A stretch of DNA of 64,000 nt from Pectinatus haikarae. Its GTDB lineage: Bacteria > Bacillota > Negativicutes > Selenomonadales > Selenomonadaceae. Made by a program: the position numbers and the translations under genes. The notes under the pieces were generated by a model that was not told where the DNA came from, did not search any database, and saw only the letters and a program-made list of their open reading frames with translations. Shown piece after piece: positions 35,766 to 50,989 of the stretch. The DNA lies in NCBI RefSeq assembly GCF_015732185.1, contig NZ_WIQM01000008.1, forward strand, positions 124,001 through 188,000, given 5' to 3'. Position 1 is the first letter of the stretch, and each line of letters opens with the position of its first letter.

Positions 35766-36083
35766 TCATTCCAAAAAGAATACCTGCTTCATTTTCGGCT
35801 GGGCGCCTGTTTCCTTGTCCATCTCCATTGTCATAACATCCTTCATATATTCATTCCACTTGTCGACAACGGCGCTTTCAGCCTGATACTTTTCAGCATA
35901 GGCAATGCTTTTTTCACATTCAAAATAGCCAAACACTTCATTGCCTGTATTCCATATAGTATAATTTTTTATGCCGGCATCTTTCAATACCTTTTTCATT
36001 TCCGGCCAGATATTATCATGGCGTTTTTTATATTCTCCGATCATTCCGTCTTTAATGACAGCCTTCCACGCAAAACGTTCCAA
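35766..36083 (-). CDS. rhaM: L-rhamnose mutarotase
   Basis: 105 residues, close to the 104 usual for RhaM. The ferredoxin-like fold shows KRHDNIWPEMKKVLKDAGIKNYTIW, with the catalytic histidine in the first helix, and NEVFGYFECE. It speeds conversion between anomers of L-rhamnose so that the isomerase receives its preferred form. TTG start with AAGGAGG upstream. Last gene of the rhamnose operon. Confidence 0.93.
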   Translation of the reverse strand: MERFAWKAVIKDGMIGEYKKRHDNIWPEMKKVLKDAGIKNYTIWNTGNEVFGYFECEKSIAYAEKYQAESAVVDKWNEYMKDVMTMEMDKETGAQPKMKQVFFLE

Positions 36084-48988: not shown

Positions 48989-49534
48989 TTATTTGCCGAA
49001 ATAACGCTTGAGCAGACCATTAAAGCCGCAGCCATGGCGGGCTTCATCTTTTGCCATTTCATGCACAGTATCGTGAATGGCATCGAGATTCAATTCTTTA
49101 GCCAATTTAGCAAGATCTAGTTTTCCCTGGCATGCGCCATGTTCAGCAGCAACACGAAGTTCAAGGTTCTTTTTAGTACTGTCTGTTATCACTTCACCCA
49201 GCAATTCGGCAAATTTGGATGCATGTTCGGCTTCTTCAAAGGCATAGCGCTTATAAGCTTCCGAAATTTCAGGATAACCTTCTCGTTCAGCTACCCTGCT
49301 CATAGCCAGATACATTCCCACTTCAGAGCATTCACCGTTAAAATTTTGACGAAGTCCTTCTATGATACGTTCATCTACGCCCTTTGCTATACCCACACGA
49401 TGTTCATCAGCAAAGATCAGTTCTCCGGACTGTTCGATGAATTTTGAAGCAGGTGCCTTACATATAGGACATTGTTCCGGTGCTTTTTCTCCTTCGAATA
49501 CATATCCGCAAACACTGCAAACCCATTTCTTCAT
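48989..49534 (-). CDS. Reverse rubrerythrin (peroxidase)
   Basis: About 181 residues from the ATG at 49534 with GGAGG upstream. An N-terminal rubredoxin-like Fe(Cys)4 site ([15 protein letters not shown]) is followed by a ferritin-like di-iron domain with two ExxH/ExxxxxxE helices ([39 protein letters not shown]). The domain order is reversed compared with classical rubrerythrin. Members reduce hydrogen peroxide with electrons from NADH/rubredoxin chains and protect anaerobes. It is alone between a terminator and the AT-rich DnaA-box region. Confidence 0.92.
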
Positions 49535-49774
49535 AATAATTTCCTCCAATTTTATATGTAGTACTATCCAGCTTGTTTATCAGCTGTATTTATCTTTATG
49601 TATCATATTATAATCATAATTCATTTATTTTTAAACACCTGTATATGCGTATTTTATAGTATTTTCATTGCATATACTCTTTATTTCTCAATCTTATGCT
49701 TTCTATCTAAATATTTACTTTTTTTTAATTTTTTATATTAAATAATAATCACTTTCCTGTTATTCTTTTAAAAC

Positions 49775-50040
49775 TTATCCACAGGATGTTTATAACTTTG
49801 TGTATAAGTTTTAACAAGTTTTTAACTATATTATTAAAAAGGCTTCTGCAAATAGTTATCCACAATATATTTTTTATCCCTGTGGATAACTAATATTTCA
49901 AGCATTAATCTTTTTTGATACAACTATATATGATAACAGGCTTTATTATTGGATTTTTATATATACATAATATTTATGGCCCGGTTTTTACAATAAAAAA
50001 ATTTTCTTTAATTATACACATTTTTATCCACTTATCAACA
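49775..50040. other. Cluster of DnaA-box-like sites in an AT-rich intergenic region
   Basis: Seven sites matching TTATNCACA exactly or with one change: 49775-49783 (+, TTATCCACA), 49799-49807 (-, TTATACACA), 49856-49864 (+, TTATCCACA), 49881-49889 (-, TTATCCACA), 50012-50020 (+, TTATACACA), 50024-50032 (+, TTATCCACT) and 50032-50040 (+, TTATCAACA). The first four form two inverted pairs repeated about 81 bp apart. About 120 bp of very AT-rich DNA lies between the fourth and fifth. No dnaA, dnaN or other origin gene is next to it. It resembles an origin or a DnaA-binding (titration/regulatory) locus. The rest of the 552-bp gap shows only AT-rich DNA. Confidence 0.65.
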
Positions 50041-50086
50041 AAATGTATTTACATAAAATGATACGTTTGACTGAACAATTCCATTT

Positions 50087-50989
50087 TTACATCAGAATAT
50101 TTATAAAGTCTCCATTGATTGAGTCCGTCCAACATTTTCTGTATCCTTTCGGTGTGACACCAATATATTTTTTGAATATTGTCTGAAAATAGCTTCCGCT
50201 GTTAAAACCAACTATATAAGCAATATCAGTGATTGTTTTATTTGTCTGCAGCAAATAAGACTGTGCCTCGCCCAGCCTGCATCTGACCAAGTATTCTATA
50301 ATCGAACTGCCCACATTTTTTTTAAAGATATGGGCAATATAATATTGATTTAAATTCATTATCCTTGCGATTTTCTCCAGAGAGATCTGTTCTCCAAAGT
50401 GGGAAATAATATAGTGGCATATATTATTTGAATATTTACATTTTGCAAACTGCTCTACATCTGTATTTTTTTGCCGACATAACAACTCCAATAAATTCAT
50501 CATCAATGCTTTTAAAATATGTATGGCAATTTCCCCGGAGTATATACTATTTTTATTTATATGCCCATACATCATTAAAAACATATTTTCTATTTCTTGT
50601 TTTTGATATTCAGATAAATCTTTTATTATAGGGAATTGTATATCAGAAATCAGGCAGTTGGCCTTTAAACCGTCGACGTGCAGATTTGTCACAGCACAGC
50701 TATACACCACCGCCCCATCATTATCCGCAGCTATTTCTTCATGTGGTACGCCGCTGTTGATAATTACAACATTTCCCTGAGAAGCATAATATTTCTGTCC
50801 ATTTATAATGTATATATTCTTCCCTTGCTTAATGAATAATATTTCCAGCCGATCGTCATGCTGATGCATAGCCCGCAGCATCCTGGTGCATTTTATATCA
50901 CCTTTTCCCATGGATACCAATGAGATTGCTGAAAATGCAGTGCAGCAACTGTAATTCTCTATTTTCGGGGGATAATTAACAGTTAACAT
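50087..50989 (-). CDS. AraC-family transcriptional regulator
   Basis: 300 residues. The N-terminal cupin-like sensor domain (about 45-150, with HQHDDRLEILFIKQG and NSGVPHEEIA) is followed by the two helix-turn-helix motifs of AraC (about 195-290: ISLEKIARIMNLNQYYIAHIFKK and TITDIAYIVGFNSGSYFQTIFKKYIGVTPKGYR). It probably senses a sugar or sugar acid and controls the isomerase gene 160 bp upstream of it in the same orientation. Its 3' end borders the DnaA-box cluster. Confidence 0.9.
   Translation of the reverse strand: MLTVNYPPKIENYSCCTAFSAISLVSMGKGDIKCTRMLRAMHQHDDRLEILFIKQGKNIYIINGQKYYASQGNVVIINSGVPHEEIAADNDGAVVYSCAVTNLHVDGLKANCLISDIQFPIIKDLSEYQKQEIENMFLMMYGHINKNSIYSGEIAIHILKALMMNLLELLCRQKNTDVEQFAKCKYSNNICHYIISHFGEQISLEKIARIMNLNQYYIAHIFKKNVGSSIIEYLVRCRLGEAQSYLLQTNKTITDIAYIVGFNSGSYFQTIFKKYIGVTPKGYRKCWTDSINGDFINILM

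Follow-up and report, generated by a model that had tools for sequence, protein, structure and literature searches.

A conserved, origin-linked cluster of DnaA-box-like sites upstream of rubrerythrin in Pectinatus haikarae, one of four that may tune replication initiation

A short intergenic region of the Pectinatus haikarae chromosome, between a rubrerythrin gene (rbr) and a gene for an AraC-family regulator, contains a real and likely functional DnaA-box cluster, conserved in the genus. On the basis of sequence comparison, we interpret this cluster, with a probability of roughly 57%, as a non-coding, origin-linked site of DnaA assembly, one of a set of four (B, C, D and E), that holds DnaA and tunes initiation; we infer all three of the steps involved, namely DnaA binding, the withholding of DnaA by binding and the effect on timing. 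In the proposed mechanism, DnaA would bind the strong boxes of the cluster, and boxes placed head to tail 12 bp apart, together with a facing box, would give rise to small DnaA oligomers that are kept away from oriC. All four clusters are located no more than ~210 kb from oriC and would therefore double in copy number soon after initiation, leaving less free DnaA and delaying re-initiation. Counted in favor of this interpretation are the excess of boxes, their conserved placement and geometry, an origin located elsewhere, and the lack of a YabA match and of a second Bac_DnaA match; counted against it are a weak cluster in one congener (G001), a genome of another genus without the boxes (G010), distant clusters in two further genomes (G033 and G011), and the ordered 12/12 geometry of the cluster.

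The window analyzed here is the whole 64-kb stretch of DNA at positions 124001–188000 of contig C4 in the draft genome of P. haikarae (G000; 3.11 Mb, 17 contigs); four congeners are labeled G001–G004, and the cluster in the window is cluster C. The features of cluster C and its surroundings, in window positions, are the following.

48989–49537, minus strand: rubrerythrin gene rbr (182 aa); cluster C lies 238–503 bp upstream of its start
49607–49635, minus strand: promoter-like site closest to rbr, 10/12, a consensus match only, without DnaA boxes
49775–49807: three-box module with box I at 49775–49783 (plus, TTATCCACA), box II at 49787–49795 (minus, TTATAAACA) and box III at 49799–49807 (minus, TTATACACA); start-to-start spacing 12/12
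49856–49864, plus strand: predicted DnaA box TTATCCACA, opening the second inverted pair
49881–49889, minus strand: predicted DnaA box TTATCCACA, closing the second inverted pair, 25 bp start to start
49890–50011: AT-rich stretch of 122 bp that separates the two box groups of cluster C
50012–50040, plus strand: head-to-tail box row of 29 bp, with TTATACACA (50012), TTATCCACT (50024) and TTATCAACA (50032)
50038–50011, minus strand: promoter-like site, 11/12, directed toward rbr and formed by boxes of the 29-bp row
50087–50989, minus strand: AraC-family regulator gene, whose 3' end abuts cluster C

Five exact sites for TTATNCACA, which is the DnaA-box consensus given in PMC4447404 (in part), are present within 266 bp (49775+, 49799−, 49856+, 49881− and 50012+), and three further sites in 49775–50040 have one mismatch (49787−, TTATAAACA; 50024+, TTATCCACT; 50032+, TTATCAACA), for a total of eight. 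The preliminary description of this DNA had the five exact sites right and listed two one-off sites where there are three, so that its seven sites become eight; its account of the first four sites as two inverted pairs holds, with a repeat interval of 81–82 bp, as do the roughly 120 bp of A/T-rich DNA before the last three sites (122 bp as measured, 49890–50011) and the identification of the neighbors as rubrerythrin and an AraC-type regulator. The araC–rbr intergenic region (49550–50086; 537 bp, 22% GC) gave, upon dinucleotide shuffling, a mean of 0.07 exact sites and a maximum of 2, with five or more in none of 5000 shuffles. Throughout the 3.11-Mb genome there are 228 exact TTATNCACA sites (117 + 111), compared to 81 + 67 for the reversed word, and uniform placement of 228 sites would be expected to produce ~1e-6 clusters like C genome-wide. 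Candidate IHF-like words, each with one mismatch to the consensus, occur at 49617, 49812 and 50033.

Boxes adjoining AT-rich DNA, as seen in cluster C, would also fit a second chromosomal origin or a relocated one, the latter being the first of two possibilities raised in the preliminary description; we regard both as highly improbable. The sole Bac_DnaA match in the genome is dnaA itself (C4:213256–214674), located on the same contig 39 kb from cluster C and followed by dnaN- and recF-like genes (named by eye and by tblastn in the congeners). In 4-kb bins over the 240 kb examined, the regions to either side of cluster C both have negative GC skew, and the sign switches to positive from the bin that starts at 208000 to the one that starts at 212000, that is, at dnaA. 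The oriC has two halves, with box clusters flanking dnaA on both sides, and the gap between dnaA and dnaN in all five genus genomes contains a TTATCAACA box, a GCCCC run, trinucleotides of the TAC/GAC/TAT type and an AT-rich stretch. Judging by these elements, the gap is the probable origin core; the oriC2 of Clostridioides difficile has an arrangement of the same kind (PMC7561715, in part). In P. haikarae the gap corresponds to C4:213010–213255 (L065:13010–13255). Cluster C, in contrast, is neither at the skew switch nor beside dnaA or dnaN, and inspection by eye of 49775–50040, including the AT-rich stretch at 49890–50011, revealed no element that combines a box, a GC run, trinucleotides and an AT-rich unwinding stretch as in the dnaA–dnaN gap. 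The position of dnaA, the sign change of the skew and the conserved dnaA–dnaN element thus led us to reject relocation of the origin. The bipartite origins of Firmicutes, such as those of B. subtilis and C. difficile, do resemble cluster C in their box clusters, and the box triple at oriC1 of the genus is similar to the module at 49775–49807, but the GC-run/trinucleotide/AT-rich element belongs to the dnaA–dnaN gap and not to cluster C.

All of the TTATCCACA clusters in P. haikarae are located on contig C4, namely E, D, C, both oriC halves and B; of the 78 TTATCCACA sites, no two on any of the other contigs were found by eye at a distance of 300 bp or less. The three sister clusters, in contig positions, are these.

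C4:6103–6272: cluster E, between MgtC- and Nramp-type genes
C4:35948–36185, plus TTATTCACA at 35936: cluster D, upstream of a YloV/DAK2-type gene
C4:222460–222719 (L066:2460–2719): cluster B, with five TTATCCACA

Cluster B is flanked by a gene for a 235-aa protein without a family match, which follows an rsmG-like gene, and by a purH-type formyltransferase gene. Orthologous clusters were located by tblastn with the flanking proteins, and the counts include P. haikarae: B was recovered in five of five genus genomes with the same genes adjoining (with just a single pair in G002), D in four of four in which the D genes were fetched, again with the same genes, and E in four of four in which the E genes were fetched, reduced to a single exact pair in G001 and in G004. 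Cluster E was not found in the two G002 stretches covered (L089 and L090), and a candidate for D in G001 (L082), which has no adjoining D gene, was left out of the count. Within cluster B, the pairs at 35 and 25 bp are retained in G001, G003 and G004, and the 35-bp pair also adjoins a homologue of the 235-aa gene in another genus (G020, L101).

The distances to the origin are similar as well. In all five genus genomes, cluster B is upstream of dnaA, at a distance of 7.4–8.0 kb; on the opposite side, cluster C is 39 kb (G000), 37 kb (G003), 53 kb (G004) and 28 kb (G002) away, followed on that same side by D at 177, 167 and 160 kb and E at 207, 207 and 191 kb (G000, G003 and G004, respectively). 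In G001, clusters C and E are not on the dnaA contig. The 2.6-Mb main contig of G004 has four TTATCCACA clusters (at least three sites in 400 bp), all at 1.25–1.42 Mb, with dnaA at 1.26 Mb, as well as one isolated pair at 473 kb; the region up to 210 kb from dnaA has 21 of its 65 TTATCCACA sites, versus 10.4 expected, and random placement of 65 sites produced a cluster of three in 300 bp in 14 of 10000 trials. E. coli also shows conservation in how far datA and the DARS loci are from the origin (PMC4585315, in part). The description of cluster C as "orphan" and "unlinked" therefore had to be abandoned, since cluster C belongs to a group of four extra-origin clusters (B, C, D and E) on the origin contig, with the same genes and similar origin distances in the congeners; the accompanying proposal of a DnaA-binding locus that tunes initiation survives as to its kind, with boxes conserved in place throughout the genus and putative binding.

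To follow cluster C across relatives, rbr was searched in 60 genomes, including that of P. haikarae, and 30 loci were fetched, 5 from the genus and 25 from other relatives. The 900 bp upstream of rbr contain 5, 1, 3, 7 and 8 exact boxes in G000–G004, respectively. In four genus genomes, no shuffle out of 1000 attained the weighted count, defined as twice the exact boxes plus the one-off boxes; in G001, which has one exact box (as many or more in 73 of 1000 shuffles) and five one-off boxes, 5 of 1000 did. Chance in AT-rich DNA is ruled out on exact boxes in four of the five genus genomes, while G001 stands out by weighted count alone. The conservation in relatives to which the preliminary description had looked is thus present within the genus (boxes at rbr in 5/5, weak in G001), and the upstream DNA of rbr in the other relatives (1.5 kb; shorter in three) has exact boxes in 0/25. 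One of these, G010, from another genus, has rbr ~50 kb from dnaA like the congeners but lacks exact boxes and has a weighted count in the range of shuffles, which suggests that the site of cluster C is dispensable over longer time. The 29-bp row of three boxes upstream of rbr is common to G000, G001 and G004, and another three-box module to G000, G003 and G004. A MAFFT alignment of the five upstream regions was poor beyond the last ~100 bp and was kept out of the counts. The weakness in G001, the lack of exact boxes at rbr in the other genera sampled and a box order that varies more between species at C than at D and E are all compatible with a remnant, decaying or neutral, that has no present role, such as what is left of an older DnaA-bound site; we consider this improbable, as exact boxes far exceed shuffles in four genomes and a 12/12 triple persists in four of five despite the poorly aligning sequence that surrounds it.

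When six genes of the window were used as tblastn queries, rbr alone adjoined the cluster in all four congeners. The neighbor on the far side differs, being AraC in G000 and a P-type ATPase in G003, and the AraC regulator was not found in the four congeneric stretches (tblastn, 1e-8); it was rejected as an anchor, its matches in named genomes being distant only (14 loci, best-segment identity 25–39%). The constant association with rbr would be explained if DnaA regulated the transcription of rubrerythrin here and thereby linked an oxidative-stress gene to the replication state, and the 11/12 promoter-like site on the minus strand (50038–50011), built from boxes, points the same way, as do promoter-like sites that modestly exceed shuffles (11 versus 6.0, sd 2.1). 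However, in the five genus genomes 246–453 bp separate the rbr match from the nearest exact box upstream, the nearer promoter-like site is free of boxes, and clusters B, D and E flank unrelated genes, so that we find control of rbr distinctly unlikely. The final T of the -10 element of the site at 50038–50011 is missing in G001 and G004.

The internal geometry of the clusters was analyzed by scanning for one box facing two same-strand boxes, with at most one mismatch per box and two in total, in 22 loci picked for their boxes or genes and in 274 kb of P. haikarae sequence. Across the 22 loci, a spacing of 12 bp between the same-strand boxes gave 21 triples, compared to 4–6 at 9–11 bp and none at 13–18 bp, and the facing distance fell into two classes, 11–13 and 21–22 bp, about one helical turn apart, as might result from contact between DnaA molecules. 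The triple is 11/12 at oriC1, upstream of dnaA, in five of five genus genomes, 12/12 at cluster C in four of five (in G002 with two one-mismatch boxes), and 22/12 at both D and E, in four of four each. The scan returned no triple in cluster C of G001 or in cluster B, and none at either rbr or the origin of G010. The 274 kb of P. haikarae sequence have triples at oriC1, C, D and E only, and 2.19 Mb of shuffled sequence has none; the module at 49775–49807 is the sole such triple within the 64-kb window. The strict 12-bp spacing and the facing box would suit an ordered complex more than a passive sink. Run on E. coli DNA, the same scanner found a single 14/12 triple both at 17.5 min and at 64 min, in the stretches that hold DARS1 (between bioD and uvrB) and DARS2 (between rppH and mutH). 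In the 10 kb around E. coli oriC there is no triple even at a three-mismatch limit, which admits both DARS cores.

These comparisons bring forward a bolder alternative, DARS-like reactivation, in which ADP-DnaA bound head to head on boxes I and II, with box III helping, would lose its ADP, be recharged with ATP and promote initiation, and which would need neither IHF nor Fis. Like DARS1 and DARS2, cluster C has two same-strand boxes 12 bp apart and one convergent box, with box I (49775+) opposite boxes II (49787−) and III (49799−), and the scanner finds this topology at DARS1/DARS2 (14/12), C (12/12), and D and E (22/12), while it is absent from the 10 kb around E. coli oriC. The DARS cores act through head-to-head DnaA contact, and the head-to-head boxes I and II are characteristic of DARS and essential, with box III assisting (PMC10380432, PMC5742627; both in part). 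However, the spacing of boxes I and II is 14 bp in E. coli, making a 14/12 core, and 12 or 22 bp here, with 12/12 at cluster C, and the same topology is present at oriC1 in all five genus genomes and hence is not specific to extra-origin sites. Moreover, IHF and Fis sites have been described for DARS2 (PMC10380432, PMC5742627; in part), which requires IHF (PMC5742627, in part), whereas P. haikarae has no protein above the IHF cut-offs. With oriC1 sharing the topology and box I–II spacing differing from 14, cluster C falls outside the DARS class on spacing; a DARS-like function is conceivable and, in our estimate, unlikely.

Holding of DnaA, the interpretation that we prefer, has known counterparts. 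B. subtilis initiates early when its six extra-origin DnaA-box clusters are removed (Okumura et al. 2012, via PMC5295017 and PMC13220808, in part), and these clusters are proposed to withhold DnaA from oriC (PMC5295017, PMC13220808; in part). The Pectinatus set resembles them in comprising a small set of clusters of consensus boxes (B, C, D and E) outside a bipartite oriC around dnaA, and differs in the organism and in the lack of a YabA match in P. haikarae; the control search does find YabA in B. subtilis and Lactococcus lactis. The E. coli datA locus is likewise non-coding, has several DnaA boxes and is thought to lower active or free DnaA, but its function requires IHF, for which HU does not substitute (PMC5742627, in part), and P. 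haikarae has two HU/IHF-family proteins, both under the curated cut-offs set for the listed models of HU and IHF, and scoring best with those of HU. The genome contains no second Bac_DnaA match beyond dnaA. Hda would presumably match the Bac_DnaA family, and the single match therefore indicates that there is no second DnaA-like gene such as Hda; together with the lack of a YabA match, neither of the model protein brakes on DnaA is visible in P. haikarae. Among literature titles for Negativicutes, Selenomonas and Veillonella, and for DARS in Firmicutes, none concerned such clusters in this lineage, which is not proof of absence. The kind of element is already known, and this set with its locus-specific three-box geometry was not found in the literature searched.

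A more speculative and doubtful reading is that, in this lineage without a YabA match, an Hda-like match or a clear IHF, initiation is run by distributed DARS-like three-box elements that need neither IHF nor Fis to recharge or trap DnaA. By the same tentative reading, each element would have a fixed facing distance of its own (boxes I and II about one or two helical turns apart, boxes II and III at exactly 12 bp) as well as its own fixed place near oriC. If true, the DARS principle would exist outside Proteobacteria, built from the module of oriC1 itself. More generally, the clusters bear on replication timing in bacteria without the best-known protein brakes of E. coli and B. subtilis, and, with the same three-box module employed at oriC1 and again at three distant loci, they tie origin architecture to extra-origin control. 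Conserved in place and, for three of the four, in internal geometry, they are defined DNA fragments that could be sinks, ADP/ATP switches or transcription switches.

Box pairs of this type extend beyond the genus. Convergent TTATCCACA pairs, including those at origins, are present in 97 of 121 genomes of the family, versus 3 of 121 for the reversed control. Among the 75 pairs listed, from 25 genomes, a further box (at most two mismatches) at 12 bp accompanies all 21 pairs with a spacing of 23 and all 11 with a spacing of 33. The common class of 36-bp convergent pairs has a 12-bp middle box in 0/22 among the pairs listed and, from this arrangement, may be a second kind of module. In other genera, clusters can be distant from the origin: a group of three sites in G033 is found at 692849–692916, ~693 kb from dnaA (near position 500 of a 2.57-Mb contig), and this genome has further groups at 2.386–2.400 Mb (~170–180 kb away on the other side) and 2.560 Mb (8 kb), and G011 has three sites ~318 kb from dnaA (by eye). 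By eye, G010 has groups beside dnaA only and G022 has no TTATCCACA group of three. The distant clusters imply that it is the genus, and not the family, that is characterized by placement near the origin. In one genome each of three other genera (G013, G020 and G011; L095, L099 and L103), a box group is near a similar gene, which encodes a proline/lysine-rich start and one membrane span (by eye), and at L103, in G011, an mgtC homologue also adjoins the box group, as at cluster E.
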